Shown here: one piece after another, positions 1,410-55,930 of the stretch
How the letters are laid out: every line of letters starts with the position of its first letter
Numbering within the stretch: position 1 is the stretch's first letter
Source of the DNA: Eunapius fragilis
Taxonomy: Eukaryota; Porifera; Demospongiae; Spongillida; Spongillidae
Assembly: GCA_963681505.1 (NCBI GenBank)
Contig: OY811976.1
Span: 1,081,715-1,145,714 of the forward strand
Direction: 5' to 3'
Length of the DNA stretch: 64,000 nucleotides
Position numbers and translations under genes: made by a program
Notes under the pieces: model-generated
Told to the model about the DNA's origin: nothing
What the model saw: only the letters and a program-made list of their open reading frames with translations
Database searches by the model: none

Positions 1410-1480
1410 TTAGTTATTGATATAATCGTATTCATCTGTATTTGGCTCATTACGTTCAATTAATCCAGTAAGTTGAACCA
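1410..1480 (-). CDS. receptor terminal exon (exon 13), tyrosine-containing tail
   Basis: After a good acceptor (CTCTCTCTCCTAG) the phase-1 frame encodes a 23-residue tail ending DEYDYINN before TAA at 1410-1412. Two tyrosines in an acidic context, with YINN matching the pY-x-N pattern bound by GRB2-type SH2 domains, suggest a phosphorylation site; that role is inference. The exon sits directly beside the first 26-bp array. Decayed copies of the same exon lie next to the other two 26-bp arrays. Confidence 0.7.
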
Positions 1481-4400
1481 CTAGGAGAGAGAGAAAATGT
1501 ATGGTACAATGGAGGGAACACCAAACATGGTACAATGGAGGGAACACCAAACATGGTACAATGGAGGGAACACCAAACATGGTACAATGGAGGGAACACC
1601 AAACATGGTACAATGGAGGGAACACCAAACATGGTACAATGGAGGGAACCAAACATGGTACAATGGAGGGAACACCAAACATGGTACAATGGAGGGAACA
1701 CTAAACATGGTACAATGGAGGGAACACCAAACATGGTACAATGGAGGGAACACCAAACATGGTACAATGGAGGGAACACCAAACATGGTACAATGGAGGG
1801 AACACCAAACATGGTACAATGGAGGAAACACATAACATGGTACAATGGAGGGAACACCCTGCTCCATAGGGTACCCCTAACACACTACTCTCCACATTCT
1901 TCCTGTTCCCTAGAATGCTCCAAATAGGGTACACTTTCTATCAGTAGATAACTATTCCTCAATACAAATCATTGTTATCTCATTTCTCGAATCAAACTAC
2001 ACCAAATGGACCTTCCACCTTCATGTTAGTCAGATGAACATTTTAGGTGTCTTATGATCTAGACATTGCACATTGGGACAACATTTAATTATGTAATGAA
2101 CACACAATATAACACCTCTATGTTACCTGGCGAGACTCTCTCCAATAATGAACGATAATCCACCATGGGGTACCTGTTTGAACAGTAAATGATCCTGATT
2201 CCAAATCACAAAGTTGGTACATTAATTATCTGTCTGTTCTATTGAACCCATAGTTGTCATACACACAAAATGCCATATCAAATTACATGTAATTTGCATG
2301 CTTAGCGTACTGAATATGCAAGTAACAATGTTTAAGTCCTGCATGTGATTAAGGGAAACTGTGATCATGGCACCCCCTCCTCCCCATACCTACTATTCAA
2401 CATGGTCTGAGCACCTGTACACATGCTCATGTACCACTTGATGAAATAAACAAAGTCATCTGTACAATTGGTAATGCATCATTTCAGTGATTTTAAGGTA
2501 AATGCACACAGAATTCCATCACATAAAATCCAGCACTGAACAACAAACATACCTTATTTTAGCAATGGCAAGTATTTTCTCTATATGCCTTCCAAAATTG
2601 CATTCAATCATTGCATCACATAGCTTTGTATAAGTAGCTGCACTCTCATATCTCTCAATCCATATCTTAAGAAATGAACTTGAACTTTCTAGTAATGTCT
2701 CAGTTTCACTTGCAATATCATCAAGTTCTTGTGAAGTAAGATTAACCTCCAAGGCTACGGATCGCCATGGAATCATTTCCTTATTTAATATTTCTGCTAT
2801 TATTAGAATGTCATCTTCATCAATCTTATCTGTGAATGAAGGTCAAGATTACTAAGTATAATATCAATCTACTCCCCACTTGTGCCCTGCTCCATAGGGT
2901 ACCCCTAGCACACTACTCCCCACATGTACCCTGCTCCATAGGGTACCCCTAACACACTACTCCCCACATGTACCCTGCTCCATAGGGTACCCCTAACACA
3001 CTACTCCCCACATGTACCCTGCTCCATAGGGTACCCCTAACACACTACTCCCCACATGTACCCTGCTCCATAGGGTACCCTTAAGTCTCCACATTCATCC
3101 TGTTCTCTAGAATGCTCTATCAGTAGGCAACTCTTCCTCAATACAAATCATAGTTATCTTATTTCAAACTACAACAAATGGACCTTCCACCTTCATGTTA
3201 CTATGAGTCAGATGAACATTTTAGGTGTCTTATGATCTAGACATTGTAGGCATATTGCACATTGGGACAACAATTAATTTTGTAATGAGCACACAAGATA
3301 ACACCTCTATGTTACCTGGCGAGACTCTCTCCAATAATGAATGATAATCCACCATGTGGTACCTGTTTGAACAGTAAATGATCCTGATTCCAAATCACAA
3401 AGTTGGTATATTAATTATCTGTCTGTTCTATTGAACCCATACGTTAGTTGTCATACACACAATATGCCATATCAAATTAAATGTAATTTGCATGCTTAGC
3501 GTACTGAATATGCAAGTAACAATGTTTAAGTGATGCATGTGATTAAGGGAAACTGTGATCATGGAACCCCTCCTCCCCATACCTACTACTCAACATGGTC
3601 TGAGCACTTGTATACATGCTCATTGTTGAAATGAACAAAGTCATCTGTACAATTGGTAATGTATCATTCTATGAATTATGCAAATGCATACAGAATTCCA
3701 TCACATAAAATCCAGCACTAAACAACAAACATACCATATTTTAGCAATGGCAAGTATTTTCTCTACATGCCTTACAAAATCGCATTTCATCAGTGCATCA
3801 CATAGCTTTGTATAAGTAGCTGCACTCCAATATCTCTCAATCCATATCTTAAAAAATGATTTTGAACTTTCTAATAATGTCTCAGTTTCACTTGCAAGTT
3901 CTTGTGAAGTAAGACCAAACGCACAGGCTACGGATCGCCATGGAATCATTTCCTTATTTAATGCTTCTGTTTTTTGAATGTTAGCTTCATCAATCTTATC
4001 TGTGAATGAAGTTCAAGATTACTGTACCATTATGTTGTGCAGTGTTGTGGAGTTACTCTTCCACCAATAAAAATCATGGCTATCTCATTTCTTGAATCAA
4101 ACTACTACCCACATATACCCTGCTCCATAGGGTACCCCTAACACACTACTCCCCACATGTACCCTGCTCCATAGGGTACCCCTAACGCACTATTCACCAC
4201 ATGTACCCTGCTCCATAGGGTACCCCTAACGCACTACTCACCACATGTACCCTGCTCCATAGGGTACCCCTAACACACTCCTCCCCACATGTACCCTGCT
4301 CCATAGGGTACCTGTAACACACCACTCCCCACCTGTACCCTGCTCCATAGGGTATCTCTAACACACTACTCCCCACATGTACCCTGCTCCATAGGGTACC

Positions 4401-7400
4401 CCTAACACACTACTCCCCACATGTACCCTGCTCCATAGGGTACCCCTAACACACTACTCCCCATAAGTACCCTGCTCCATAGGGTACCCCTAACACACTA
4501 CTCCCCACAAGTACCCTGCTCCATAAGGCACCCCTAACACAATACTCCCCACATGTACCCTGCTCCATAGGGTACCCGTAACACACCACTCCCCACATGT
4601 ACCCTGCTCCATAGGATACCCCTAAAAAAACTACTCCCCACATGTACCCTGTTCCATAGGGTACCCCTAACACACTACTCCCCACATGTACCCTGCTCCA
4701 TAGGGTACCCCTAACACACTACTCCCCATAAGTACCCTGCTCCATAGGGTACCCCTAACACACTACTCCCCACAAGTACCCTGCTCCATAAGGCACCCCT
4801 AACACAATACTCCCCACATGTACCCTGCTCCATAGGGTACCCGTAACACACCACTCCCCACATGTACCCTGCTCCATAGGATACCCCTAACACACTACTC
4901 CCCACATGTACCCTGCTCCATAGGGTATCCCTAAAAAAACTACTCCCCACATGTACCCTGTTCCATAGGGTACCCCTAACACACTACTCCCCACATGTAC
5001 CCTGCTCCATAGGGTACCTCTAACACACTACTCCCCACATGTACCCTGCTCCATACAGTACCCCCAACACACTACTCCCCACATGTACCCTGCTCCATAG
5101 GGTACCTCTAACACACTACTCCCCACATGTACCCTGCTCCATAGGGTACCCCTAACACACTACTCCCCACATGTACCCTGCTCCATAGGGTACCCCTAAC
5201 ACACTACTCCCCACATGTACCCTGCTCCATAGGGTACCCCTAACACACTACTCCCCACATGTACCCTGCTCCATTGGGTACCCCTAACACACTACTCCCC
5301 ACATGTACCCTGCTCCATTGGGTACCCTTAACTCCCCACATTCTTTCTGTTCCCTAGAATGCTCCAAATAGGGTACACTTTCTATCAGTAGATAACTATT
5401 CCTCAATACAAATCATTGTTATCTTATTTCTCGAATCAAACTACAACAAATGGGCCATACCACCTTCATGTTAGTCAGATGAACATTTTAGGTGTCTTAT
5501 GATCTAGACATTGCACATTGGGACAACATTTAATTATGTAATGAACACACAATATAACACCTCTATGTTACCTGGCGAGACTCTCTCCAATAATGAATGA
5601 TAATCCACCTTGGGGTACCTGTTTGAACAGTAAATGATCCTGATTCCAAATCACAAAGTTGGTACATTAATTATCTGTCTGTTCTATTGAACCCATACGT
5701 TAGTTGTCATACACACAATATGCCATATCAAATTAAATGTAATTTGCATGCTTAGCGTACTGAATATGCAAGTAACAATGTTTAAGTGATGCATGTGATT
5801 AAGGGAAACTGTGATCATGGCACCCCCTCCTCCCCATACCTACTACTCAACATGGTCTGAGCATTTGTATACATGCTCATTGTTGATATGAACAAAGTCA
5901 TCTGTACAATTGGTAATACATCATTTCTATGAATTATGCAAATGCATAGAGAATTCCATCACATAAAATCCAGCACTAAACAACAAACATACCTTTCTTT
6001 AGCAATAGCAAGTATTTTCTCTACATGCCTTCCAAAATCGCATTTAATCAGTGCATCACATAGCTTTGTATAAGTAGCTGCACTCCAATATCTCTCAATC
6101 CATATCTTAAGAAATGAACTTGAACTTTCTAGTAATGTCTCAGTTTCACTTGCAAGTTCTTGTGAAGTATGACCAAACTCACAGGCTACGGATCGCCATG
6201 GAATCGCTTCCTTATTTAATGCTTCTGTTTTTTGAATGTTAGCTTCATCAATCTTATCTGTGAATGAAGTTCAAGATTACTGTACCATTATGTTGTGCAG
6301 TGTTGTGGAGTTACTCTTCCACCAATAAAAATCATGGTTATCTCATTTCTTGAATCAAACTACTACCCACATGTACCCTGCTCCATAGGGTACCCCTAAC
6401 ACACTACTCCCCACATGTACCCTGCTACATGTACATAGTGCTCGGAGTACTAATTTATGCAGTAAGTTGAGCCACTAAGTGAGGGAAAACCAAACATGGT
6501 GGAATGGAGGGAACACCAAACATGGTACAATGGAGGGAAAACCAAACACGGTACAATGGAGGGAATACCAAACATGGTACAATGGTGGGAACACCAAACA
6601 TGGTACAATGGAGGGAACACCAAACATGGTACAATGGAGGGAACACCAAACATGGTACAATGGAGGGAACACCAAACATGGTACAATGGAGGGAATACCA
6701 AACATGGTACAATGGAGGGAACACCAAACATGGTACAATGGGGGGAACACCATGTGCACTTTGGAAGTGTTTATGTGTGTGGTGGTGTGTTGGGAGGGTG
6801 CCGATGGGGGAGAGGGGTCACAATGTGGCGGGGGGTGTGGGGGTCACAATGTGGCAGGGGGTGAGTGGGGGGTCAGAATGCTTTACCTCCCACCTTGTTA
6901 GAGTGTGTGGGTTAGGAGTGTATCATGTCATGGTACAAAAGTGAGATGAGTGATGTTAAAGTTTGCTGGTATGTGTTGTGGGGATAGTGTGTATTGATGT
7001 GGTTCAGAGTGTATGCTGGTGCTGGTACATTAGTGTGTGTGTGAGGAGTGTGGTGAGTTGTAATGCAACTCCCACATCTGTCCTCACAACCTTGCACAAT
7101 ACACAACATGTACAGCTGTACATAAGATGTGGTACTCACTGATCTTCCTGTTCTTCTTCTTCCTCCAGCAGTAGAGAACTACTATGGCTCTGCAGAAAAT
7201 GAATAAATCATAATCATACCCACAGTTACTTACAGGGAACAAGATAACCAATCCATTAAGTGAGTAGTACATGTATGGAACACCAAACATGGTACAATGG
7301 AGGGAACACCAAACATGGTACAATGGAGGGAACGCCAAACATGGTACAATGGAGGGAACGCCAAACATGGTACAATGGAGGGAACACCAAACATGGTACA

Positions 7401-10400
7401 ATGGAGGGAACACCAAACATGGTACAATGGAGGGAACACCAAACATGGTACAATGGAGGGAACGCCAAACATGGTACAATGGAGGGAACGCCAAACATGG
7501 TACAATGGAGGGAACACCAAACATGGTACAATGGAGGGAACACCAAACATGGTACAATGGAGGGAACACCAAACATGGTACAATGGAGGGAACGTCAAAC
7601 ATGGTACAATGGAGGGAACGCCAAACATGGTACAATGGAGGGAACACCAAACATGGTACAATGGAGGGAACACCAAACATGGTACAATGGAGGGAACACC
7701 AAACATGGTACAATGGAGGGAACACCAAACATGGTACAATGGAGGGAACACCAAACATGGTACAATGGAGGGAACACCAAACATGGTACAATGGAGGGAA
7801 CACCAAACATGGTACAATGGAGGGAACACCAAACATGGTACAATGGAGGGAACACCAAACATGGTACAATGGAGGGAACACCAAACATGGTACAATGGAG
7901 GGAACACCAAACATGGTACAATGGAGGGAACACCAAACATGGTACAATGGAGGGAACACCAAACATGGTACAATGGAGGGAACACCAAACATGGTACAAT
8001 GGAGGGAACACCAAACATGGTACAATGGAGGGAACACCAAACATGGTACAATGGAGGGAACACCAAACATGGTACAATGGAGGGAACACCAAACATGGTA
8101 CAATGGAGGGAACACCAAACATGGTACAATGGAGGGAACACCAAACATGGTACAATGGAGGGAACACCAAACATGGTACAATGGAGGGAACACCAAACAT
8201 GGTACAATGGAGGGAACACCAAACATGGTACAATGGAGGGAACACCAAACATGGTACAATGGAGGGAACACCAAACATGGTACAATGGAGGGAACACCAA
8301 ACATGGTACAATGGAGGGAACACCAAACATGGTACAATGGTGGGAACACCAAACATGGTACAGTGTGGATAACTACGGAACTTACCCTATGATGACTGCC
8401 ACCAACAAAATAGTTACCCCTGACACCACTGACACCACTGATGCCACCACCACCGCATTAGAAACAATGGATCCTATTTGTGCAACATGTTGTGTGATAT
8501 GAATATGATAGTATGCTAGTCCCCGGGTCATTCCATGTCCTGACACAAATGAATCGGCATGTACCCCTCAGATTTGTGTGCAATTTATCATATTTGCTTG
8601 ACCTAATATGGATGTTACTTTAACGCATTAATTTTTAAAATCTCACGAGCGGTTTACGAATTAACACCGTCATGAATAATTAATTGCTTTCCACTTTGAA
8701 GACTCAAAACTCCCTAATTACAGAACCTTGTATGGCTATTGTTGGCATCAAATTGAAGCTCTCTTAGTGTACAATCCAACTATAATATGTTTCTGTGGGA
8801 GAGGCGAAAGGGTTAAAGAATAAACGTTTATACAGCACGGTTTTCAATATTTAGGTCACTTGCAGGGTGATACTTACGAATTTTGTTTTTGTATATGAAA
8901 ACTGTTCATTGTCCTTACATTTAAAAAAATAATAAAAAGTTTGAGTATCAGCTAGTTCTGGGAACTGCGGAGGGTTAAAGGGCAAGATGCCATTTTTAAT
9001 TTCTTCATAGTTGATTTTATCCCTAATGAGAAGCAAGTGTTTGTTTAGATACGTCTCAAGGGTATTACATAATACTGTCGTCAACTATCACAACAGTAAG
9101 AAAGGGTGGTGGTAATTTTTAAAAATGATTTTTAGTACATCGAATTGCGCATTTATTGGAAACCGTTAAGCCTATTTCATGACTCATAAGTGGTTACAGC
9201 TCAACATTTCTTTTGATTTGAAGTAAAAAGGAACAACGAGGTTTAACTGAACCGGCAGTGGGACCTATTCAACCTGTTCATACGGCGCACCGGGATCCCA
9301 CCCGCGGCACCACTACCCCCCGGGCCCGGTGCTATTAATTGAACTCCCGCGTTCCACTACCGACGGTACCATTAGTTGAACAACCCGCGGTACCACTACC
9401 ACTTGCCGAGCCTCCTGAGCAACTACCAGAGGTCCCAGCTGCCGTAGCTGACGTACCAGTAGCACCCCTTGCCGCCCTACCACATACAGCGCGTCGATAT
9501 ACTGGTACGTCAGCTACGGCAGCTGGGACCTCTGGTAGTTGCTCAGGAGGCTCGGCAAGTGGTAGTGGTACCGCGGGTTGTTCAACTAATGGTACCGAGG
9601 GTAGTGGAACGCGGGAGTTCAATTAATAGCACCGGGCCCGGGGGGTAGTGGTGCCACGGGTGGGATCCTGGTGCGCCGTATGAACAGGTTGAATAGGTCC
9701 CACCGCCGGTTCAGTTAAACCTCGTTGTTCCTTTTTACTTCAAATCAAAAGAAATGTTGAGCTGTAACCACTTACGACAGTACTAACGAGCAGCCCCGGA
9801 TCCAGGATTTGGCTAAGGGGGAAGGGGGTGGGGCGGTTTTACGGAAGGGGCGGCACATTGACAATGAATGCATGCGAAGCATGGGGCGGATACGAAAAGC
9901 GGTGGGGGAGGGGGGGGGTGCTGTCCGTTTTAGGTCGGGAGAAGGGGGTGCTGGGTGCTGTCTGCTTCAGGTCCGATACGTAAAGTACGAAATGTGGGAG
10001 GGGGGGGGGGCTCTTGCCGTACGATGATATATATCTTGGTTTGTGCGCGCATGCGTGATAGTGCGTGGAGAGCGGGGGGGGGGGGGCGGCCCCCCCCCCC
10101 CCCCCAAGCCTATGCTGGATCCGGGGCTGCTAATGAGCACCCTTACCTAAGCAACGATCCCATTAGAAGGCTTAACGGTTTCCAATAAATGCGCAATTCG
10201 ATGTACTAAAAATCATTTTTAAAAATTACCAACACCCTTTCTTACTGTTGTGATAGTTGACGACAGTATTATGTAATACCCTTGAGACGTATCTAAACAA
10301 ACACTTGCTTCTCATTAGGGATAAAATCAACTATGAAGAAATTAAAAATGGCGTCTTGCCCTTTAACCCTCTGCAGTTCCCAGAACTAGCTGATACTCAA

Positions 10401-12680
10401 ACTTTTTATTTATTTATTTTAATGTAAGGACAATGAACAGTTTTCATATACAAAAACAAAATTCATAAGTATCACCCTGCAAGTGACCTAAATATTGAAA
10501 ACCGTGCTGTATAAACGTTTATTCTTTAACCCTTTCGCCTCTCCCACAAAAACATATTATAGTTGGATTGTACACTAAGAGAGCTTCAATTTGATGCCAA
10601 CAATAGCCATACACGTTCTGTAATTAGGGAGTTTTGAGTCTTCAAAGTGGAAAGCAATTAATTATTCATGATGGTGTTAATTCGTAAACCGCTCGTGAGA
10701 TTTTAAAAATTAATGCGTTAAAGTAACATCCATATTAGGTCAAGCAAATATGATAAATTGCACACAAATCTGAGGGGTACATGCCGATTCATTTGTGTCA
10801 GGACATGGAATGACCCCCCCAGGACATATACAGTACTAATCACACTTCCCTTTGATGAGACAGAATACATGTAGGTTCAAATTACATTGTGCAATATACG
10901 CTACAGACTACAATGTGTGTGTGAGTTACTTGTATTTCAGCTTTCCCGTGTGCATTACTGTAGCACCAACAATTGCATACTTTTAGTCAGATTAACTGTA
11001 CATGTACCTCGAACTGTTAGCTTTGCTGGTGGGAGTATGTCCTCATATGATGTAGCACCCACAAACAGAACACTGCAAAGTACTTTAATTCCATTGTTAT
11101 CAGCATCTCCACGTACTGTGAGGTACACGGTGGTGTTGGCCCCTGATGGTATTAGTGAGGACTGGTTGATTCCACGAGATGTCCATGTGGAGGGATCAAC
11201 GTTGACCACCTTAAATATGATGTCATTCACATTGGTAGCACTGCATGAGAATGATGCAGTCTCTCCCAACATGACTGTCTGGTTGAGTGGAGGTGTCACC
11301 CCTGATGCCAAGGGAATTGATCATGTAAATATCACACTTTAGTACAATGTGTGTGGGTGTGTGAGTTACTTGTATTCCAACTTACTGGAGTTGGTGGTCA
11401 CATTGATTGATGCACTTCTGGTGCCCTCATCCCCAGACACTCCATTCCCGGCCACCACAGTGATGATGTAAGTATGGCCTGGGGACAGGGAGGTCACATT
11501 ATATGTGAGCTCAGTGGTGTTTGATGTTCCATTAGATGATCCATTGACCTCATGGTAGGATACAGTGTAGTTCAGAGGTCCACCAATCCCTGGGTCCTCA
11601 GGTGGGTACCAGGTTAGGTCCACATAGGTGTAGCCAACATGAGCAGCTGTCAGATGTTGGGGAGCAGATGGAGGGGCTGTAGGGGGGGGGGGGGGGGACC
11701 ACAGAGGAGTGAGATATGCCCCAAAACTGACAATGCATGATCACTTAATTTAGAGAGAGAGAGAGAGGGGGAGATGTTAGCCTTCAACGGTTAGCCAATT
11801 CATACCTCCACCCCTCCTCCCATGTGAAGTACCCAATCAGAACCTGCAGAAGCAGTTTCCATGCAGCATTAAGTAAAATAACGTGACTCATGTCTGGAGG
11901 GATGACCATGAATCAGATCATTTCTCTCTTTGTTGCTATTGAACGATAACACAATAATGTTCCATGTGTTGGAGGAGAGAGTGGTATTCAGTGGCATATA
12001 GGATATAGGAGTGGAATGTAAAATGCATGGGAACAAGGTGACTAAAATGGAAAATAACACCTAAATGTAAGATGTCATACATACATTCGTGGTGTGGTAA
12101 GTACACCCTGTTCTCATGCATACTTTTTACACCACCATTGCCTCGTAAGTTGGTGGCATATAGGATTGGAACCAATCCTATATGCCAGCACCTTTCTCTT
12201 AGGGAACGTTTGGAGTTAATTGTTGTTAAAACTAACCTTGTACAGACAGGTAGGCTGCTGGCCTTGAGTCAACTCGTGTTCCACCAGCCAGAAATATTAT
12301 GCACATGATTTCCAAGGTGTGGTCATTCTCCGGTTTACCTGGCACATGAAGGTTTACAGTGGTCTGACTACCACTGTATACTGGTGCAGACACTGCCACT
12401 CCCCTATAAGCCACATATGAGATGGGCAGGGAGTTCACCAAATATGCAACAGCTTGCACCTCCGTTACAGTGCAGGTGAACGTTGCTGTGGATCCCAACA
12501 TCACTGATGTATTCACTGGTGTCTGAATAAAGCCTGCCATCACTGTAACATAACAAACCAAAGGGACAGGAACATGCATATTGAATGAACTAATATTCAT
12601 TGTGTATCAAGCTCACCGTTTGTGACCAGATAGAAATGCAGTGGTACAAGAATGCCAAGCTGGAGTCGAAATGAGAGCAT
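1410..12680 (-). CDS. Ig/FN3 transmembrane receptor with three tandem death domains (13 exons)
   Basis: Assembled from 13 minus-strand exons: 12680-12617, 12542-12237, 11676-11386, 11301-11008, 8473-8386, 7189-7140, 6257-5993, 5618-5572, 3999-3735, 3362-3316, 2829-2553, 2173-2127, 1480-1410. Each intron has GT/AG borders, every junction keeps phase, and the sum is 2112 nt (703 codons plus stop). Residues 1-21 are a signal peptide, about 22-123 Ig-like, 124-220 FN3, 221-318 Ig-like, and about 324-352 a membrane helix followed by a basic stop-transfer stretch. Three death domains lie near 365-450, 469-555 and 573-663, followed by a short tail. Death domains are homotypic adaptor-binding folds, so a cell-surface receptor signalling in apoptosis or innate immunity is inferred. 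No ligand can be inferred. Introns are loaded with minisatellites and a palindrome. Exon usage, and whether all three modules are spliced together, is unproven without transcripts. Confidence 0.8.
1499..1857. repeat. 26-bp minisatellite array A
   Basis: About 14 copies of a 26-bp unit containing CCAAACATGGTACAATGGAG, one of them short by 3 bp near 1648. It lies in the intron upstream of the receptor's terminal exon. Long open frames through it on both strands are artefacts of a stop-free 26-mer. Confidence 0.97.
2127..2829 (-). CDS. death-domain module C (exons 11 and 12)
   Basis: Exon 11 (2829-2553, 277 nt) follows the acceptor TTCATTCACAG and ends at the donor GTATGT. It encodes a death domain with the core Trp (IPWRSVA), an LTSQEL turn, FLKIWIERY and TYTKLCDAM. 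Compared with the other two copies it has four extra residues (DDIA) after SQEL. Exon 12 (2173-2127, 47 nt, donor GTAACA) encodes a linker, YPMVDYRSLLERVSP. The phases are 1 in, 2 between and 1 out, so the pair is a symmetric cassette of 324 nt. This is the membrane-distal module. Confidence 0.78.
2874..3079. repeat. 44-bp minisatellite array, short
   Basis: About four to five copies of a 44-bp unit containing CCCTGCTCCATAGGGTACCC, in the intron just upstream of death-domain exon 11. The same unit forms the larger array at 4105-5335 and a short one at 6366-6428. Confidence 0.95.
3316..3999 (-). CDS. death-domain module B (exons 9 and 10)
   Basis: Exon 9 (3999-3735, 265 nt) and exon 10 (3362-3316, 47 nt) repeat the module C layout with the same acceptor, donor and phases. 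The death domain reads IPWRSVACAFGLTSQEL, then SFFKIWIERYWSAATYTKL and LCDALMKCDF. The linker is YHMVDYHSLLERVSP. The total is 312 nt, so adding or dropping the module keeps frame. Flanking intron sequence is also close to modules A and C, showing a genomic duplication rather than exon convergence. Confidence 0.78.
4105..5335. repeat. 44-bp minisatellite array, about 28 copies
   Basis: Head-to-tail 44-bp units containing CCCTGCTCCATAGGGTACCC. A block of about six variant units (near 4430-4700) recurs at about 4695-4960 with the same private variants, showing a higher-order duplication of roughly 265 bp. It lies in the intron between modules A and B. Frames through it are repeat artefacts. Confidence 0.96.
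5572..6257 (-). CDS. death-domain module A (exons 7 and 8), membrane-proximal
   Basis: Exon 7 (6257-5993, 265 nt) and exon 8 (5618-5572, 47 nt). The frame is open throughout and encodes IPWRSVACEFGHTSQEL, SSFLKIWIERYWSAATYTKL and a linker YPKVDYHSLLERVSP. There is no internal ATG at the position where modules B and C read MIPW; here it is AIPW. It therefore cannot start translation there, which supports its use as an internal exon. Its phase-1 acceptor fits the phase-1 end of transmembrane exon 6. Confidence 0.78.
6366..6428. repeat. 44-bp minisatellite, one to two copies
   Basis: A remnant of the CCCTGCTCCATAGGGTACCC unit between death-domain exon 7 and the decayed terminal-exon copy. Confidence 0.85.
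6455..6474 (-). pseudogene. decayed copy of the receptor terminal exon, possible alternative last exon
   Basis: On the minus strand an acceptor (CCCTCACTTAG) is followed by a phase-1 frame encoding VAQLTA and then TAA. This matches the first residues VVQLTG of the true terminal exon at 1480-1410. It lies between transmembrane exon 6 and the first death-domain exon. Splicing exon 6 to it would keep phase and give a receptor without death domains. It may equally be a dead duplicate. Confidence 0.45.
6487..6752. repeat. 26-bp minisatellite array B
   Basis: About ten copies of the CCAAACATGGTACAATGGAG unit, slightly more diverged than array C, directly upstream (minus-strand sense) of the decayed terminal-exon copy. 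Confidence 0.96.
6753..7139. other. intron with G/T-rich unique sequence
   Basis: Intronic sequence between transmembrane exon 6 and array B, rich in GGGGG and GTGTG runs. I see no coding exon in it. Confidence 0.6.
7140..7189 (-). CDS. receptor exon 6: end of membrane helix and stop-transfer
   Basis: A 50-nt exon between acceptor TTTTCTGCAG and donor GTGAGT. Joined in phase 2 to exon 5 it completes the helix (AIVVLYCW) and gives the basic cytoplasmic edge RKKKNRKI. It ends in phase 1, which fits both death-domain exon 7 and the decayed last exon at 6474. Confidence 0.8.
7275..8361. repeat. 26-bp minisatellite array C, about 42 copies
   Basis: A 1.09-kb array of almost identical 26-bp CCAAACATGGTACAATGGAG units. 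Variant units (AACGCC for AACACC) are confined to the first 350 bp, while the rest is essentially homogenised. It fills the intron between the two transmembrane exons. A degenerate trace of the terminal exon is visible at about 7230-7275. Confidence 0.98.
8386..8473 (-). CDS. receptor exon 5: transmembrane segment
   Basis: An 88-nt exon from acceptor AAATAG to donor GTAAGT. It enters in phase 1 and leaves in phase 2. It encodes a short stalk and a Val/Ser/Ile-rich helix (VVVASVVSVVSGVTILLVAV) that continues into exon 6. It is the only strong hydrophobic span in the assembled protein apart from the signal peptide. Confidence 0.8.
8525..10816. mobile_element. 2.3-kb palindromic (foldback) element in a receptor intron
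   Basis: The left arm from 8525 (GGGTCATTCCATGTCC) is the reverse complement of the right arm ending at 10816. Inside, 9190-9461 pairs with about 9501-9778 around a short loop near 9481. Arms are high identity with scattered substitutions and carry no recognisable transposase. The right arm is split by other insertions between about 9782 and 10166. A foldback transposon or an inverted duplication are both possible. Confidence 0.75.
9789..10131. mobile_element. poly-G-bearing repeat with 17-bp terminal inverted repeats
   Basis: It is bounded by AGCAGCCCCGGATCCAG and its reverse complement, with AACG/AATG flanks that could be an imperfect 4-bp target duplication. The interior has long G runs and the recurring phrase GGGTGCTGTCTGCTTCAGGT, found elsewhere in the window. 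It is non-coding. Confidence 0.6.
11008..11301 (-). CDS. receptor exon 4: second Ig-like domain
   Basis: 294 nt, phase 1 at both ends, acceptor TTGGCATCAG and donor GTACAT. It encodes an Ig-like fold with the Cys pair in ASFSCSA and IKVLCSVLF, the entry PPLNQTVMLGETASF, and several Asn-x-Ser/Thr sites. The canonical Ig Trp is not obvious. Its position is between FN3 and the membrane. As a 1-1 exon it could be skipped without frame loss. Confidence 0.8.
11386..11676 (-). CDS. receptor exon 3: fibronectin type III domain
   Basis: 291 nt, phase 1 at both ends, acceptor CCCCTACAG after a C-rich tract and donor GTAAGT. It begins PPSAPQHLTA and has the FN3 landmarks VDLTWYPPEDPG, LNYTVSYHEV, LSPGHTYIITVVAGNGVSG. 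It carries many Asn-x-Ser/Thr sites, as expected of an extracellular module. The paralogue at the right edge has a matching exon beginning PPSAPTDINI. Confidence 0.88.
11681..12236. other. intron between receptor exons 2 and 3, with a decayed foldback MITE
   Basis: It holds a G17 run at 11681-11697 beside the FN3 acceptor. A degenerate inverted repeat at about 11940-12235 carries the phrases TTTTTACACCACCATTGCC and GGCATATAGGAT. The latter phrases are shared with the 291-bp MITE copy at 59195-59487, so it is probably an older relative. Confidence 0.55.
12237..12542 (-). CDS. receptor exon 2: first Ig-like domain
   Basis: 306 nt, phase 1 at both ends, acceptor TTATGTTACAG and donor GTTAGT. 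It encodes FIQTPVNTSVMLGSTATF, the Cys pair in FTCTV and IMCIIF, and ends AAYLSVQ. It is clearly homologous to the Ig exon of the plus-strand paralogue at 62950-63237 (shared YxVNS, a Thr-Val-Asn strand, and YL-x-VQG end). Confidence 0.85.
12617..12680 (-). CDS. receptor exon 1: signal peptide
   Basis: ATG at 12680-12678, 64 coding nt, donor GTGAGC in phase 1. It encodes MLSFRLQLGILVPLHFYLVT, a short basic head and hydrophobic core typical of a secretory signal. The ATG directly follows CACACAG, so a 5' UTR intron may end there. Without transcript data a further upstream exon cannot be excluded. Confidence 0.65.
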
Positions 12681-16753: not shown

Positions 16754-19631
16754 TATATGGGGCAGTGCAAGAGAAAACTGGGCTTATGTGATTTTTAACA
16801 TTTCTTCAATTCATCTTGCAGTATCTTTGCGACCTTTAAAGCTCTGTCCTTCAAACTTACTACATATATTACCGGACCATTTTACTACTGCATTTTGTTG
16901 TCGAATGTTTTTTATTTACTCCCTGGGGGGTCCTCATGATTAAACAACCAGAACAGTTAGATTTCAATGGATCTCGATGAAAGAATGCCTTTTCGCGTTC
17001 AAATTTGCACCACATTTACAACACTGCACCCGCTATTTTTTCCGCCTTTTCGTTTGAGATGTGATGAGCGGTTACAAAACAGCGGCGTTTGAAAGTTGTC
17101 GTTCATTTGTCTTCCGATTGCTCCGCCATTGTGCCGTCATTGCTATTTTAACCCCGTGACTACGAGACACTGCCCATCAAGTGCCCCACCCTCCCTCGAA
17201 TAGATAGCCCAGGCCATCCGGAGGTGGACCTGACATTTTGCAAGTTGCTTGTCACGTGAGCATTACTAGGTTACACGCTGCGTCTCCTTCAGTTGCGTAA
17301 ACGAGTTGGGAGTTTACGGTGGCGCGTGGCGACATGAAAACGTCGAATTGATCGAGCCTACGTGATCCTAAGGCTAAGATAACGTACGTAAGCTCAAACC
17401 CTTTTGCAATCACGTATTGTAGTTGAGCTTGTATGTTTGTTCATTTCTACGAGGGTAATTCGATTTTTTTTTTCTCGGACACAGGCCACACGTGCTGTCG
17501 CTCGTGTATTTGTGACTGAGATATAATCGCTACACGTCATCCTACTTAAACTCGACCGGCGCAACGTTTGTGTTCACTGCAATGTATACATGAAGACGAT
17601 TTGGAATAGTACGTTATCCTAGTAGTTTACACCCATGCCAGTTTAAAATCCGGTATTATGGAGACTGTTGCCTGTGAGCAGCAAAGCGATGACCAATCCG
17701 TTTACACCACTGATGGCATAACATACACTATGCCAGTATTATATGGCCACAATGGTGCTGTTGACAATACTCAGACCCCCAAAATTTATGCCTTCAACAC
17801 ATTGGAAATCTTGTACACACAATTGTCTGTATGATGTGTACATTGACTATGTAGTCCCTCACTACAAGTCACACACAAACTAACTGTGCGCACACACTCC
17901 CACACAAAAATATCACAGTTCTTGGGGTAAGCAGTATGCAGTGTGTCCCTTCATATGGCTTGCTTGCATTCAGACTTCATACCACTCGGGTATACTTGCT
18001 CCTATTAGATGCACTTGTATGTGTTGCCTGTGTCTGCAACTGTGGCTCATTACATTAATAGATGGTCACAACATCTATACAAGCTAAGCATACCTAAGCG
18101 AGTAGAATCACACAGGTATGCACGCCATTCATGATAAAGGCACATCGCTTACATTCACATGCAGGACACTAGACAGACCACAAAACCTTAGCCTGTTGTT
18201 CTATCCCTGTAAAGAGTTAAGGAACCAGTCTCAAAAACTTCTACTGTTGCTGGGAGACATCCAATTCTAAGTCCCATGCCATGCTCATACTGGTATCATA
18301 GCAGATCCCATCCCCAGACAAAATGTCCACAAGCGAAATAAATGTCTCCCTCTTTCATAAAATGTTCTCCTTTTTCCCATCCATTCAAAGAACCTGTGTA
18401 TGCATGTGAGTGTACATGTGCATGCATGCATGTGTGTGTATGTTTGCTTTTGTTTATGTGTGCATGTAATTAAAAATACAATGAGCCAACAGGGAATGGT
18501 GTGTAGTGCTGTGACATTATGTAGTAGTCCAAGTTTGATACAAAGCACCAATCCATTGGCCACTGGTGCTACCAAACTTGATTTCATAGAGCTCTTACAA
18601 CAGTGCTACTTGTACAGGCCACATTAGTTTGGATTTTAGTATCCAGGTCAAGATGTTCTGTTGCATTAGTGAAAGGGGGCTGACTGTGGGCAGGTTGCTG
18701 ACCTCAAGCATACAATGCACTATGAATTTATGTACAAAGGCAACAATAGAATGCTGTATGCTCCAAAGTCACATCTACCCATCCTCATATCAACCACTGA
18801 CAAACACATGGGTACAAGCTTGGCCTGTACAAGTAGCACTGTAGTAGTTTGGCAGCACCAGTGGCTGTTGGATTGGTGTTTTGTATCAAACCACAATTGT
18901 ATGGACTACTACATAATCCAATTTCAGTCAGAACACTACACCTATTGGCTCATTGTATTCTATCAGCTATGCAACAACATTGTGCACTGAAATTGTTCCC
19001 CTGGACAAAATCTGCTAGTAGAATCTGCACATAACTGGCTTACAAATCATGTCCCCCGAGGACACAATACACTAGCAGATTCTGTCCCCCTCCAGCAGAA
19101 ACAGAAAATATCCCCCCCCCCCCACACATACACACTTGCACACACTTCTTTGACTGAACAGGAGGACCCAACACATACAAGTGCATCTAATAGGAGCAAG
19201 TATACCCAAGTGGTATGAAGTCTGAATGCAAGCAAGCCATATGAAGGGACACACTACATACTGCTTACCCCAAGAACTGTGATATTTTCTGTGTGGGAGT
19301 GTGTCTGCACAGTTAGTTTGTGTGTGACTTGTAGTGACGAACTACGCAGTCAATGTACACACATCATACAGACAATTGTGTGTACAAGATTTCCAATGTG
19401 TTGAAGGCATAAATTTTGGGGGTCTGAGTATTGTCAACAGCACCATTGTGGCCATATAATACTGGCATAGTGTATGTTATGCCATCACTGATCAGTGGTG
19501 TAAACGGATTGGTCATCACTTTGCTGCTCACAGGCAACAGTCTCCATAATACCGGATTATAACTGGCATGGGTGTACACTACTAGGGTAACGTACCATTC
19601 CAAATCGTTTTCATGTATACCTTGCACAGAG

Positions 19632-19870
19632 GTGGATACAGGGGTGGGGGGGGGTTGGGGGTTGCAACCCCCCCTTTCATATAAGGTACCTCCCCCTCTT
19701 CTTCTAAGCAGCCCCCCCCCCCCCCCCCCCCCCCCCGCTTTTTGTATCGGGCCTGAAGCGGACAGTACACACGGTGACACCCCCCACACACACACAGTGA
19801 CACCCTGCTTTTGGTATCGTGGGTCTCAACCCCCCCTTTTGGAAAGTTCTGTATCGGCCCCTGCAGTTGC
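19632..19870. mobile_element. poly-C/poly-G repeat inserted in the right palindrome arm
   Basis: Absent from the matching left arm. It contains a C run, TATCGGGCCTGAAGCGGACA (reverse of the recurrent TGTCCGCTTCAGG phrase) and GGTACCTCCCCCTCTTCT, also seen at about 53318. Same family as 9789-10131. Confidence 0.6.
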
Positions 19871-20159
19871 AGTAAACACAAACGCTGCACCGGTCAGTTT
19901 AAGTAGGATGACGTGTAGCGATTATATCTCAGTCACAAATACACTAGCGACAGCACGTGTGGCCTGTGTCCGAGAAAGAAAAAAAAAAAAAAAAACGAAT
20001 CACCCTCGTAGAAATGAAAAAACATACAAGCTCAACTACAATACGTGATTGCAAAAGGGTTTGAGTTATCTTAGCCTTTGGATCACGTAGCTCGATCAAT
20101 TCAAGGCTTTCATGTCGCCACGCGCCACCGTAAACTCCCAACTCGTTTACGCAACTGAT

Positions 20160-20500
20160 GGACACAGGGAAAATCCCAGCCTTGGGTTTTTTGTTTTTTA
20201 ACAAGAAGTCATCCTGGAATTGAGCGTCTAGCATGGGAATATCGCAAAAACCATCCTGGGATTTGGCGTCCAGGGTGGGTATAGCTTAAAAACGATGCTG
20301 GGTTTGTCGAACAAAAACCGTGTTGAGCTCATTTTTATTCATTCCTTCAACATGGTTTTTGTTCGACAAACCCAGTATTGTTTTTAAGCTATACCCACCC
20401 TGGACGCCAAATCCAAGGAAGGTTTTTGCACTAGACGCTCAATTCCAGGATGGCTTTTAAAAACCCAAGGCTGGGATTTTGAAACTTTTTCCTGTGGGAG
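20160..20500. mobile_element. foldback MITE, about 340 bp
   Basis: Nearly its whole length is an inverted repeat centred near 20333. The arms carry AAACCCAGCCTTGGG-type ends and an inner TTTTTGTTCGACAAACCCAG arm. It interrupts the right arm of the giant palindrome inside sequence that is continuous in the left arm (about 17280-17310). Confidence 0.75.
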
Positions 20501-21032
20501 ACGCAGACCGGTGAACCAAGTGATACTCACGTGACAAGCAACTTGCAAAATGTCAGGTCCACCTCCGGATGGCCTGGGCTATCTATTCGAGGGAGGGTGG
20601 GGCACTTGATGGGCAGTGTCTCGTAGTCACGGGGTTAAAATAGCAATGACGGCACAATGGCGGAGCAATCGGAAGACAAATGAACGACAGCTTTCAAACG
20701 CCGCTGTTTTGTAACCGCTCATCACATCTCAAACGAAAAGGCGGAAAAAATAGCGGGTGCAGTGTTGTAAATGTGGTGCAAATTTGAACGCGAAAAGACA
20801 TTCTTTCATCGAGATCCATTGAAATCTAACTGTTCTGGTTGTTTAATCATGAGGACCCCCCAGGGAGTAAATAAAAAACATTCGACAACAAAATGCAGTA
20901 GTAAAATGGTCCGGTAATATATGTAGTAAGTTTGAAGGACAGAGCTTTAAAGGTCGCAAAGATACTGCAAGATGAATTGAAGAAATGTTAAAAATCACAT
21001 AAGCCCAGTTTTCTCTTGCACTGCCCCATATA

Positions 21033-25334: not shown

Positions 25335-27551
25335 TAATAAATATATGGGACGGTGTCCAGCAAAATCACCCTTCTGGAGTTTTAATTTTATCACTATAAA
25401 AATTGTACGTTACGCAAAGCAACATATCTTCACAACGGTTTTATATTTTCTTTTCAAATTTCGTACACTTGTTCACACATCAGTTCTCTCTGTGCAAACC
25501 GATTTTGGTGCTCTAGATATTTTCCATGCCATGGTTACAAAGGTCTCTAACCCAATGGGTTAAGATTCCACATTTCTCCAGATACGAGTGACGATAACAT
25601 GTCAAATTTGGAGTGTACATAGAAGGGTCCTGTAGCTACTGATTTCTGCAGATCGTTACGTTTTTTCTTATCCGTTACGGAGATATGGAGTTTCAAAGTA
25701 ATTCGACATTTCGCGCCACTCACCCTATTCCAATATGCCATTATGTAATGGTCACGCCCTTTAAATTTGAAGTTAGGTATTAAATGAACTCCGCTTTGAT
25801 CGTTCTATACGTGGTGTATAAGCGATATCGTACCTCGTACGCTATGTTTCAACATAAAACAGTATCGTACGTTCACATGTATCGCTTATGATGGATGCTG
25901 TGAATATTCATGGTAGTTTATATTGTGCACCCTTTTTCTATATCTGCTCAGTTTGTGGCATGTACATGTAAGCATGCACGTACCATGCCTTCTAATCATG
26001 GGGCCACCTTCTTCACCCTCTACACCCTCTACACTAGTCTGGGGACCAGATGACTTGCTTGCGACAGTCAGTTTTCTCTTACACAGACTGCAGTACCTTT
26101 ACTTAGTATGGCATATCTCTCTAGACCATTCATATTCACTGCCTTTCTTTCTATCTTACCTCCTCCTCCTTCTCCTCATCTCCTTCCACCTCTTTCTATC
26201 TTCCTTCATCCACCCATCCTCCTCCCCTCTCTTCCTCTCCTCCTCCTCTCCTCCTCCTCCCCTCCTCTTCCTCCTACTTTTACTCCCTCTCATTTTCCCT
26301 CCTACCTTCCTTCCTATTACACCTAACACCCCTCCTCCTCCTTTCTTTTGATTGCATCCACACCTCACCCTCCTCCTCATCCTCCTACTTCTACCTTCCT
26401 ACCTGTTGCATCCTCCCCTCCTCCTTTCATTTTTCCCGTTGCATCCACCCCCACCTTCTACTCCCCTCCTCTACCTCCTTCTCCTCCTCCCCCTCCTCCT
26501 CTTCCTATCTTCCTTCATCCACCCATCCTCCTCCTCCCCTCCTCTCCCCTCCTTCTCCTCCTCCCTTCTCCTCACCTCCCCTTCTCCTCCTCTTACTCCC
26601 TCTCATTTTCCCTCCTACCTTCCTTCCTATTACACCTACCCCTCCCCCTCCTTTCGTTTGATTGCATCCAAACCTCCCCTCCTCCTCCTCATCCTCCTAC
26701 TTCTATCTTCCTACCCGTTGCATCCTTCCCTCCTCCCCCTCCTCCTTCCATTCTTCTTCCCGTTGCATCCACTCCCCACCTTCTCTTCCCTCTCCTCTAC
26801 CTCCTTCTCCTCCTCTTCCTATCGTTTGTCATCCACCCATCCTCCTCCTCCCCTCCTCCTCTCCTCCTCCTCTCCTTCCCTCCACCTCCCTCCCTCCCCT
26901 CCTCCTATCTTCATCCACCCATCCTCCTCCCCTCCTCCTCCTCTCCGTCTCCCCTCCTCCTCCCTCCACCTCCTCTCCTCCTCCCTCCTCCTCCCCTCCT
27001 TCCTCCTTCACTCCACCTCCTCCCTCCTCCCCTCCTCCTCCCTCCTCCTCCCCTCCTCCTCCCTCCTCCTTTCCTCCTCCTCCCCTCCTCCTCCCTCCTC
27101 CTCCCCTCCCCACTTCTACCTTACCACCAGTTGCATCCTCCCCCCTCCTTCCATTCTTTCCATTGCATCCACCCCCTACCTTCTCCTTCCCCTCCTCTAC
27201 CTCCTTCCCTCTTCTCCCTCCTCCTCCTCCTATCTTCCTTTATCCACCCATCCTCCTCTCCTCCTCCTCCTCCTCCTCTTACTCCCTCTCATTTTACCTC
27301 CTACCTCCTTCTTCTCCTCCTATCTTCCTTCATCTACACACCCTCCTCCTCCCCTCTCCCTCCTCCTCTTACTCCCTCTCATTTCCCTCCTACCTTCCTT
27401 CCTATTACACCTACCCCTCCCCCTCCTCCTTTCATTTGATTTCATCTACACCTCCCCTCCACTTCCTTCTCATCCTCCTGTCTTCTCCTCCTCTTCCTCT
27501 ACCTCCTTTTCCTCCTCTCCCTCCTCTTCCTATCTTCCTGCATCCACCCAT

Positions 27552-27751
27552 NNNNNNNNNNNNNNNNNNNNNNNNNNNNNNNNNNNNNNNNNNNNNNNNN
27601 NNNNNNNNNNNNNNNNNNNNNNNNNNNNNNNNNNNNNNNNNNNNNNNNNNNNNNNNNNNNNNNNNNNNNNNNNNNNNNNNNNNNNNNNNNNNNNNNNNNN
27701 NNNNNNNNNNNNNNNNNNNNNNNNNNNNNNNNNNNNNNNNNNNNNNNNNNN
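27552..27751. other. assembly gap, 200 N
   Basis: Exactly 200 unknown bases, a placeholder size. By symmetry they replace sequence equivalent to about 29798-29997 or more, so the real length is unknown. Confidence 0.99.
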
Positions 27752-28013
27752 ACCATGTACCATTCTACCATGCTTGCTTGTCTATGTAAACCACTGGCCA
27801 CCCACAATCTGTGCTGACAATGGATAATAATATTCATGAAAGGCTTATACCAACATACATTCCCTTGTGTAGAGCTCTAGAGTTCAGACAGGCTCTGTAT
27901 TATAATAACCTTTTCTAGTTGCATGTAGTTTGCACATCCCAAAAAATACATTCCGCTGACTCCTATGTGAAAACATATATATCGAGATGAACACTTCCTT
28001 TGAAACAAAGTGG
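27752..28013. other. unique spacer after the gap
   Basis: About 260 bp of ordinary AT-rich sequence with no mirror partner in the other arm and no gene. Confidence 0.6.
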
Positions 28014-31000
28014 TTAATATAAAATACCCTCCCTACCCAAGAAGGTGGAAGGGAAGGAGGAGAAGGAGGAGGAGGAGGTAGAGGAGAGGGGAGGAGGTAG
28101 AGGAGGGGGAGAAGGTAGAGGAGGGGGAGAAGGAGGAGGTAGAGGAGGGGGAGGAGTTAGAGGAGGGGGAGAAGGGGGAGGTAGAGGGGGGAGGTGGGGA
28201 GGTAGAGGATAGGGAGGTAGAAGATGGGGAGGTAGAGGATGGGGAGGAGGAACACGAGGAGGTGAAAGAGGGAGAGCGGTGGATGCAACTGGAAGAATGG
28301 AAGAAGGAAGACGGGGAGGAGGGGAGGATGCAACGGGTAAGAAGGTAGAAGTAGAAGGATGAGGAGGAGGAGGGGAGGTGTAGATGAAATCAAAAGAAAG
28401 GAGGAGGGGGAGGGGTAGGTGTAATAGGAAGGAAGGTAGGAGGGAAATGAGAGGGAGTAAGAGGAGGAGGAGAGGGAGGAGAGGAGGAGGGGAGGAGGAT
28501 GGGTGGATGAAGGAAGATAGGAGGAGGAGGGGGAGGGGAGGAGGAGAGGAGGAGGAGGAGGATGGGTGGATGCAGGAAGATAGGAAGAGGAGGGAGAGGA
28601 GGAAAAGGAGGTAGAGGAAGAGGAGGAGAAGGTGGGGGTGGATGCAACGGGAAGAATGGAAGGAGGAGGAGGGGAGGATGCAATAGGTAGGAGGGTAGAC
28701 ATAGGAGGAGGAGGAGGGGGAGGTGTAGATGAAATCAAAAGAAAGGAGGAGGGGAAGGGGTAGGTGTAATAGGAAGGAAGGTAGGAGGGAAATGAGAGAG
28801 AGTAAGAGGAGGAGGAGAGGGAGGAGAGGAGGAAGAGGGAAGAAGGATGGGTGGATAAGAGGAGGAGGGGAGGAGAAAGAGAGGAGGAGGATGGGTGGAT
28901 GAAGGAAGATAGGAAGAGGAGGAGGGAGAAGAGGGATGGAGGTAGAGGAGGGGAAGGAGAAGGTAGGGGGTGGATGCAACGGAAAGAATGGAAGGAGGAG
29001 GGGAGGATGCAACCGGTGGGAAGGTAGAAGTAGGGTAGGGGAGGAGGAGGGGAGGAGGAGGAGAGGAGGAGGAGAGGCGGAGGGGAGGGGGAGGGTGGAG
29101 GAGGGAGGAGGGGAGGAGGAGGGGAGGAGGAGGGAGGAGGGGAGGAGGAGGGAGGAGGGGAGGAGCGGAGGAGGAGGGAGGAGGTGGGGCAGAGGAGGGA
29201 GGAGGGGAGGAGGAGGGAGGAGAAAAGGTGGTTGGAGGAGGAGGGGAGACGGAGAGGAGGAGGAGGGGAGACGGAGAGGAGGAGGAGGGGAGACAGAGAG
29301 GAGGAGGAGGGGAGGAGGATGGGTGGATGAAGATAGGAAGAGGAGGGGGAGGGGAGGGAGATGGAGGGGAGGAGAGGAGGAGAGGAGGAGGGGAGGAGAG
29401 GAGGAGGGGAGGAGAGGAGGAGGGGAGGAGAGGAGGATGGGTGGATGGAGGGGGAGGAGGGGAGGATGCAGCAGGTAGGAAGGTAGAAGTAGGAGGATGA
29501 GGAGGAGGAGGGGGATCGAGGAGGGAGGAGGAGGAGAGGAGGAGGAGGGGAGGAGGGGAGGAGGAGGGGAGGAGGAGGGAGGAGGAGGGGTGGAGGAGGA
29601 GTGGAGGAGAGGAGGAGGAGAGGCTGAGGGGAGGAGGAGAGGAGGAGGAGAGGCAGAGGGGAGGGGGAGGGGGAGGAGGAGGAGGGAGGAGGAGGGGAGG
29701 AGGAAGAGGGGTAGGTGTAATAGGAAGGAAGGTAGGAGGGAAATGAGAGGGAGTAAGAGGAGGAGGAGGAGGAGAGGAGAAGGAGAGGTGGAGGAGGGGA
29801 GGAGGAGGGGAGGAGGATGGGTGGATGAAGGAAGGTAGGAGGAGGAGGGGGAGGAGAGGAGAGGAGGAGGAGGAGGATGGGTGGATGCAGGAAGATAGGA
29901 AGAGGAGGGAGAGGAGGAAAAGGAGGTAGAGGAAGAGGAGGAGAAGACATAGGAGGATGAGAAGGAGGTGGAGGGGAGGTGTAGATGAAATCAAAAGAAA
30001 GGAGGAGGGGGAGGGGTAGGTGTAATAGGAAGGAAGGTAGGAGGGAAATGAGAGGGAGTAAGTGGAGGAGGGAGAGAGGAGGAGGAGGGTGTGTAGATGA
30101 AGGAAGATAGGAGGAGAAGAAGGAGGTAGGAGGTAAAATGAGAGGGAGTAAGAGGAGGAGGAGGAGGAGGAGGAGGAGAGGAGGATGGGTGGATAAAGGA
30201 AGATAGGAGGAGGAGGAGGGAGAAGAGGGAAGGAGGTAGAGGAGGGGAAGGAGAAGGTAGGGGATGGATGCAATGGAAAGAATGGAAGGAGGGGGGAGGA
30301 TGCAACTGGTGGTAAGGTAGAAGTAGGGAGGGGAGGAGGAGGGAGGAGGAGGGGAGGAGGAAGGGAGGAGGAGGAAAGGAGGAGGGAGGAGGAGGGGAGG
30401 AGGAGGGAGGAGGAGGGGAGAAGGAGGGAGGAGGAGGAAAGGAGGAGGGAGGAGGAGGGGAGGAGGAGGTAGGAGGAGGGGAGGAGGAGGGAGGAGGTGG
30501 GGCGAAGGAGGAAGGAGGGGAGGAGGAGGGAGGTGGAGGGGAGGAGGAGGGAGGTGGAGGGGAGGAGGAGGGAGGAGGAGAGGAGGTGGAGGGAGGAGGA
30601 GGGGAGACGGAGAGGAGGAGGAGGGGAGGAGGATGGGTGGATGAAGATAGGAGGAGGGGAGGTGGAGGGAAGGAGAGGAGGAGGAGAGGAGGAGGGGAGG
30701 AGGAGGATGGGTGGATGACAAACGATAGGAAGAGGAGGAGAAGGAGGTAGAGGAGAGGGAAGAGAAGGTGGGGAGTGGATGCAACGGGAAGAAGAATGGA
30801 AGGAGGAGGGGGAGGAGGGAAGGATGCAACGGGTAGGAAGATAGAAGTAGGAGGATGAGGAGGAGGAGGGGAGGTTTGGATGCAATCAAACGAAAGGAGG
30901 GGGGAGGGGTAGGTGTAATAGGAAGGAAGGTAGGAGGGAAAATGAGAGGGAGTAAGAGGAGGAGAAGGGGAGGTGAGGAGAAGGGAGGAGGAGAAGGAGG

Positions 31001-55578: not shown

Positions 55579-55930
55579 CTAGGAGTCATCAAGTTCCATG
55601 AGACAGGCATTAATCCGATCTCGTGCTTCAGTTGCTGCTTGTCGTTTAGGGCGTTGTCTTGGTGTACTCTCAACTTGCTGCTCTTCACTTATCTGTTCTT
55701 CTTGATTGGGCTGAATTTCACATCGTAGCTCTAAAGGGTACAGTAACTGTACTGGGCGCCTGAGAGTTGTGGTCCCACCATTCTTTGTAGGGACCTTCAA
55801 TACAGCTCCTCGTGTATTGCCATCCCGCCCAATGATCAGCTCTTGTACTCTAGCAAGCTTCCAGAAGCTTCTTGGCAGATCATCATCATGAAGCAGCACA
55901 ATATTTCCGATCTCGATCGCTGGGACTGCC
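55579..55930 (-). pseudogene. BEL/Pao pol C-terminal domain (post-integrase, DUF5641-like)
   Basis: It encodes IEIGNIVLLHDDDLPRSFWK, LARVQELIIGRDGNTRGAVL and TLRRPVQLLYPLE, the block that follows integrase in BEL/Pao polyproteins. It lies in a different frame from the protease and is joined to it at about 55930, marking the deletion junction. Confidence 0.8.

Follow-up and report, generated by a model that had tools for sequence, protein, structure and literature searches.

A gene on the minus strand of a 64,000-nucleotide stretch of the genome of the sponge Eunapius fragilis (the window; C6:1081715-1145714, C6 being the contig or chromosome name used for all paralogue coordinates) is predicted to encode a single-pass receptor in which an ectodomain of immunoglobulin-like (Ig) and fibronectin type III (FN3) domains is joined to three tandem death domains. 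This gene, termed gene C (window 12680-1410), belongs to a set of at least three such genes, which carry two (gene B), three (gene C) and five (gene A) copies of a cassette composed of a death-domain exon and a 47-nt linker exon. Taking the explanation and its mechanism as a whole, we consider it probable that this locus is a genuine gene whose product is a type I membrane receptor.

Gene model and domain assignment

The initial annotation had proposed a single-pass Ig-FN3-Ig receptor with a transmembrane (TM) segment and three death domains, encoded by 13 exons. This architecture proved right: the 13 exons were recovered on the minus strand at the same outer coordinates, with GT-AG boundaries in 12/12 introns and 12/12 joins in frame (Table 1). 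Since two paralogous genes keep the order and splice phases of the shared parts, the model stands above chance. The initially annotated length of 703 codons was an underestimate by 15 codons, the rebuilt model comprising 717 residues and a stop, or 725 aa with an alternative TM acceptor. The joins between ectodomain exons are in phase 1, and those of the TM/juxtamembrane and death-domain/linker exons in phase 2. Hydropathy analysis gave a single strong hydrophobic segment (residues 328-373), C-terminal to the ectodomain, and a weaker one (residues 8-27) compatible with a signal peptide. The predicted protein order is signal peptide, Ig-FN3-Ig, one TM helix, three death-domain and linker cassettes, and a short tail. 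The model is least certain in the splicing of the TM exon and in exon 13 (1480-1410), the paralogue regions having yielded no counterpart of the latter.

Domains were assigned using the curated Pfam cut-offs for Death (PF00531, 22.6 bits), fn3 (25 bits) and Ig_3 (30 bits). Over the whole protein, Death matched three stretches (E = 2.7e-19); taken singly, each copy also exceeded the cut-off, in support of three death domains, with death domain 2 (DD2) barely passing (23.3 vs 22.6 bits). The FN3 domain was likewise upheld (47.4 bits, E = 2.3e-12). For the Ig domains the agreement is partial: the Pfam match for the whole protein is below the cut-off (Ig_3, E = 0.0022, 18.9 of 30 bits), whereas an AlphaFold model of Ig domain 1 is all-beta (predicted local distance difference test score, pLDDT, 58.5), which together with homology between Ig exons agrees with the Ig identity, short of proof. 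The death-domain model consists of five helices (pLDDT 48.6), and its top structure matches are death folds, none of them significant; by sequence, ankyrin death domains come nearest among solved chains, a weak match (E = 0.014). TNFR_c6, TSP1, ZU5, UPA, TIR, NACHT and LRR are not among the 10 Pfam families listed up to E = 10 for the gene C protein, a range in which the HMMER filters discard most matches above E ~0.1, limiting these negatives.

Paralogous genes A and B

A cassette query over the contigs of the genome (68/68 candidates scored, 17 matches listed) placed its ten closest matches on C6, in three clusters corresponding to genes A, B and C, while the other seven were distant (32-38% identity, E = 1.3e-7 or worse). 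Death matches in general number at least 150 in this 219-Mb, 24-contig genome (150 of 380 candidates scored). Its contig C24 (28,504 bases) contains a COX1 frame in which TGA serves as a sense codon, and an open frame taken by eye for atp9. Presence of atp9 in the mitochondrial genome is characteristic of sponges. Hairpin-forming repeats differ among freshwater sponges (PMC7800867). Gene A (minus strand, C6:510488-493405) has an uninterrupted reading frame across Ig, FN3, a TM exon of its own and five death-domain/linker pairs, with Pfam Death matched in five stretches (E = 9.1e-52). Its Ig exon, which gave no Pfam match, is 42% identical to Ig2 of gene C (tblastn), and no signal-peptide exon was assigned. 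Two adjacent gene A cassette units are identical across 2698 bases, reflecting either a very recent duplication or an assembly effect. Gene B (plus strand, C6:280997-289351) likewise stays in an open frame from the signal peptide across Ig, FN3, Ig, TM and the juxtamembrane exon to the end of two pairs; its death domains are 30-36 nt shorter than DD3 of gene C, and neither gave a Pfam Death match. GT-AG sites are present at all assembled joins of the three genes, and all ten death-domain copies are open, every gap among them being a multiple of three. In gene A the same cassettes follow a different TM exon, joined in the same phase, so the join between TM segment and death domains is unlikely to reflect an error at a single locus.

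Both paralogues have possible additional in-frame exons downstream, as judged by eye, and their C-termini are incomplete as assembled. One gene B exon (C6:290127-290402, with a partial copy at 285452-285634) lies by eye in frame after the second cassette and is helical-looking. It looked CARD-like by eye and was considered as a C-terminal domain common to genes B and C; the candidate was rejected, as Pfam and PDB searches returned nothing up to E = 10, and its best tblastn counterpart in the gene C region was at chance level (E = 1.8).

Cassette architecture and history

The three cassettes of gene C measure 312, 312 and 324 nt. The frame stays open when the first, the first two or all three pairs are removed in silico, but not when DD1 or linker 1 is removed alone; as the death-domain and linker exons of a cassette sum to a multiple of three, cassettes can be added or left out without a frameshift. 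The death domains of gene C are unequally similar to each other (91-95% DNA identity) and are, to judge from their sequences, recent duplicates. An unrooted tree built from the ten units gives 100% support to A1-A5 as one group and to B1-B2 as another, and splits C-DD1 and C-DD2 from the rest at 100%, with C-DD3 on the A/B side. The arrays of genes A and B have therefore expanded or been homogenised within each gene, and the close sisters in gene C are DD1 and DD2 only. Tandem arrays of 26-bp and 44-bp repeats lie between the exons (Table 1) and are possible sites for unequal crossing-over.

Evolutionary rates

The FN3 domain is 91-95% identical in protein between genes. For the death-domain exon, the ratio of nonsynonymous to synonymous rates (dN/dS), computed for 8 of the 10 copies (28 pairs), is about 0.7-1.9 between genes. 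Values of 6.4 and 6.6 were obtained for C-DD3 against C-DD1 and C-DD2, each with one synonymous change; these are the only two of the 28 pairs below 0.05 (Fisher p ~0.02, uncorrected). Among the remaining 26 pairs, one lacks synonymous changes and the others range from 0 to 1.9. Identity is lower in the death-domain exon than in the cassette intron for 31/31 between-gene pairs and for 5/14 within-gene pairs. Fisher tests of exon against intron on ten chosen pairs gave p = 0.0002-0.0015 for three between-gene pairs involving gene B, 0.25 and 0.08 for C-DD3 against gene A, 0.02 (DD1/DD2), 0.04 (DD2/DD3) and 0.11 (DD1/DD3) within gene C, 0.56 for B1/B2, and 0.03 in the opposite direction for A1/A5. 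The tests are mixed, and gene conversion of the introns could give the same pattern; we do not claim positive selection on the death domain. The exon is not constrained like FN3, and relaxed constraint, diversification and gene conversion of introns are all compatible with the comparison.

Related ectodomains and outside homologues

Searching the genome with the ectodomain (109 of 358 candidates scored) gave at least 88 exon matches, 65 of the 88 on C6; 62 of these 65 start at 0.2-3.5 Mb, including five from gene C, four from gene B and two from gene A. This cluster of Ig/FN3-like exons is a candidate immune or allorecognition complex. A relative at C6:892 kb retains FN3 and a juxtamembrane exon, and no death domain was seen in the ~9 kb downstream of it, nor downstream of a relative at 333 kb, in a filtered open-frame list inspected by eye without a Pfam scan. 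These relatives agree with the cassette query, which among its 17 listed matches placed close ones only in genes A, B and C, and related ectodomains may carry different tails.

At the right edge of the window, another Ig/FN3-like receptor gene starts at 62949-63702 (plus strand) and extends to roughly C6:1147 kb; a near copy, its tandem duplicate, lies at C6:1158-1162 kb. Its first exon is ~39% identical to Ig1 with no Pfam Ig match, fn3 is below the cut-off (E = 0.0026), TM-like exons were recognised by eye, and no close death domain was found there.

Compared with outside proteins, full-length gene C matched one fn3 protein (E = 1.2e-4; scored against the 8000 candidates with the most words in common), which looks bacterial, and the tail gave no match up to E = 10 (7999 candidates scored). 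A single death-domain exon matched 9 proteins among 13 candidates: two are the window's own, three are gene A/B exons, and four (P0003-P0006), 78-88% identical over 79% of the query, equal none of the ten genome exons. These four may derive from another haplotype, unplaced contigs or a sister species and, with one genome examined, give a hint of allelic polymorphism.

Other features of the window

A long foldback with 519-nt arms, 99% complementary and 3.2 kb apart, occupies 16754-21032, and a 772-residue stop-to-stop open frame at 48021-50339 (minus strand), with no Pfam match above cut-off, perhaps encodes a transposon protein. Retroelement pieces at 38600-40339 (plus) and 55836-57699 (minus) contain gag- and reverse-transcriptase-like regions (below cut-off) and DUF1759 (141.5 bits), which we take to be typical of BEL/Pao elements. 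Very long pyrimidine-rich and purine-rich arrays with extreme GC skew (26146-31402) flank a 200-N gap (27552-27751).

Table 1. Exons of gene C and repeat features of its introns (window coordinates; E-values and bit scores from Pfam)
Feature	Coordinates	Strand	Evidence or remark
Exon 1: start codon and putative signal peptide (MLSFRLQLGILVPLHFYLVTN)	12617-12680	-	Gene model, hydropathy
Exon 2: Ig-like domain 1 (Ig1)	12237-12542	-	Pfam below cut-off; homology to the other Ig exon; low-confidence all-beta model
Exon 3: FN3 domain	11386-11676	-	fn3 E = 2.3e-12; aa identity 95% to gene B, 91% to gene A
Exon 4: Ig-like domain 2 (Ig2)	11008-11301	-	Identity 34% to Ig1, 73% to gene B; Pfam below cut-off
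Exon 5: TM exon; alternative in-frame acceptor moves start to 8539	8386-8515	-	88% identity to gene B, hydropathy
Exon 6: end of TM segment and basic juxtamembrane stretch (GAIVVLYCWRKKKNRKI)	7140-7189	-	Homologous exon in gene B
Exon 7: death domain 1 (DD1)	5993-6257	-	Death E = 1.9e-5, 25.1 bits
Exon 8: linker 1 with VDYHSL	5572-5618	-	Gene model, motif pattern
Exon 9: death domain 2 (DD2)	3735-3999	-	Death E = 7e-5, 23.3 bits
Exon 10: linker 2 with VDYHSL	3316-3362	-	Gene model, motif pattern
Exon 11: death domain 3 (DD3), most canonical of the three	2553-2829	-	Death E = 3.8e-9, 37 bits
Exon 12: linker 3 with VDYRSL	2127-2173	-	Gene model, motif pattern
Exon 13: terminal exon with stop, tail ...TDEYDYINN	1410-1480	-	Gene model
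Foldback (long inverted repeat) element in intron	8525-10816		Flanked by CCCC at 8521-8524 and 10817-10820
26-bp tandem array, ~42 copies, between TM and juxtamembrane exons	7277-8362		Also 6481-6752 and 1501-1858
44-bp tandem array, 28 copies, between death-domain cassettes	4101-5332		Also 2869-3084

Discussion

The explanation that we favour, and hold to be probable, is a clustering receptor that recruits death-domain adaptors. Death-domain signalling works through the seeding of helical assemblies, with the death-inducing signalling complex (DISC), the Myddosome and the PIDDosome as precedents for assembly with adaptors. A ligand or an adjacent cell would cluster the gene C ectodomains, the closely packed tandem death domains would, together with a cytosolic adaptor, seed a helical assembly of death domains, and this assembly could lead to a caspase or NF-kB type output. 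The number of cassettes would set how few receptors suffice to seed, more copies lowering the threshold; cassettes may be added by unequal crossing-over in the arrays and skipped by splicing, with the frame kept. The graded clustering of adaptors proposed in the initial annotation is plausible in that the cassettes are phase-symmetric and the genes carry two, three and five of them, but recent duplicates need not be three different adaptor sites. Domain content, the many related ectodomain exons and the sponge precedents discussed below make gene C a candidate innate-immune or cell-death receptor. Its domains, in-frame joins, paralogues and cassette symmetry are seen in the sequence, whereas expression, clustering, adaptor recruitment and a role in immunity or allorecognition are inferred.

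Receptors with death domains are already known, and the novel part is the combination of an Ig/FN3 ectodomain with tandem death domains. The initial annotation had found this combination unfamiliar, and indeed no Ig/FN3 receptor with tandem death domains appears in the literature searched, a search outside which most subscription journals lie. The familiar death receptors have one death domain each. UNC5 netrin receptors are organised as Ig-Ig-TSP1-TSP1-TM-ZU5-UPA-death domain. Like them, the gene C product would be single-pass with an Ig-like ectodomain and a cytoplasmic death domain, and the UNC5H2 death domain is among its weak fold matches; unlike them, it has FN3, no TSP1, ZU5 or UPA match, and three death domains instead of one. 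Death receptors of the TNF receptor superfamily (Fas, TNFR1, p75NTR) are type I proteins with a cytoplasmic death domain, as predicted for gene C, and cysteine-rich TNFR repeats, whereas the gene C ectodomain is Ig/FN3-like with no match to such repeats, and its death domains are in tandem.

Among sponge proteins, DD2 of Geodia cydonium (distinct from the domain DD2 of gene C) is reportedly raised in expression during allograft rejection, according to the title of that work. It has two death domains (PMC5793068, PMC9798719), and the available parts of its descriptions, by which alone it is compared here, mention neither a TM segment nor an Ig/FN3 ectodomain. Ig domains are combined with a signalling domain in sponge Ig-TIR receptors and in a Dysidea avara 'gene containing Ig domains and a CARD domain' (PMC6208332, PMC12909245), the latter listed, in the portions available, among genes changing upon microbial patterns (PMC6208332); the signalling domain there is TIR or CARD, in contrast to the tandem death domains of gene C, which has no TIR match. 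Sponge NLRD proteins differ in that gene C has no NACHT or LRR match. Botryllus FcoR and Hydractinia Alr, described in the accessible text as Ig-superfamily allorecognition receptors or candidates, lie in a gene complex, as gene C may, and resemble it in having ITIM-like tail motifs (ITIM, immunoreceptor tyrosine-based inhibitory motif), while 'Death domain' occurs 0 times in the main text of the two papers, the comparison being by description only (PMC12065747, PMC11999971).

Only 9 nt of intron are left between the foldback element of gene C and the TM exon, no such element occurs at the corresponding place in gene B, and in this position it could reduce the membrane form. Because the foldback sits beside the TM acceptor and in silico skipping of the TM exon gives a clean 320-residue product that ends after Ig2 without a TM segment, the allele may yield an anchor-less form. 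The same features, and the pairs whose phase symmetry allows the first, the first two or all three to be skipped in frame, would fit an array that is mainly an alternative-splicing device, with transcripts of zero to three cassettes, a TM-skipped secreted Ig-FN3-Ig decoy and a minor full form; with the splice sites of all cassettes looking intact and an alternative in-frame TM acceptor present, inside the foldback and adding 8 residues, we think this unlikely, if worth keeping in mind. A transposable element at a splice acceptor and repeat-filled introns could also mark gene C as a young decaying duplicate, its architecture a product of unequal crossing-over in tandem arrays without selected function. 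The dN/dS near 1 between genes, the lower identity of death-domain exon than cassette intron in all 31 between-gene pairs and the shortened gene B death domains point the same way, yet ten of ten death-domain copies are open with gaps only in multiples of three, FN3 is highly identical in protein, and GT-AG is kept at every assembled join of the three genes, so that decay seems distinctly unlikely.

The tail might instead be inhibitory or scaffolding, its linker tyrosine motifs signalling and its death domains serving as dimerising or cytoskeletal spacers. Every linker fits [VILS]xYxx[LVI], the ITIM consensus, to which we liken VDY[HR]SL. The pattern is short, however, and because the linkers are recent duplicates the three matches are not independent. 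The ankyrin death domains as closest, if weak, solved chains are in keeping with such a role, as are the ITIM and hem-immunoreceptor tyrosine-based activation (hemITAM) motifs that the available text reports on Botryllus and Hydractinia allorecognition candidates (PMC12065747); overall we judge this account improbable.

A more far-reaching version of the clustering receptor, which is speculative and on balance rather unlikely, places gene C in a sponge self/non-self complex on one chromosome, in which Ig-FN3 ectodomains would have differing tails and cassette number and sequence would vary by gene and perhaps by haplotype, so that a countable, recombining array would set contact-triggered cell death.

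Knock-down with double-stranded RNA has reportedly been carried out in sponges. The series of two, three and five cassettes suggests a family able to tune its signal by copying an inner unit, and natural receptors with these copy numbers would be a ready series for relating death-domain valency to firing threshold. Genes A, B and C would also be a candidate receptor family for sponge cell death or allorecognition.
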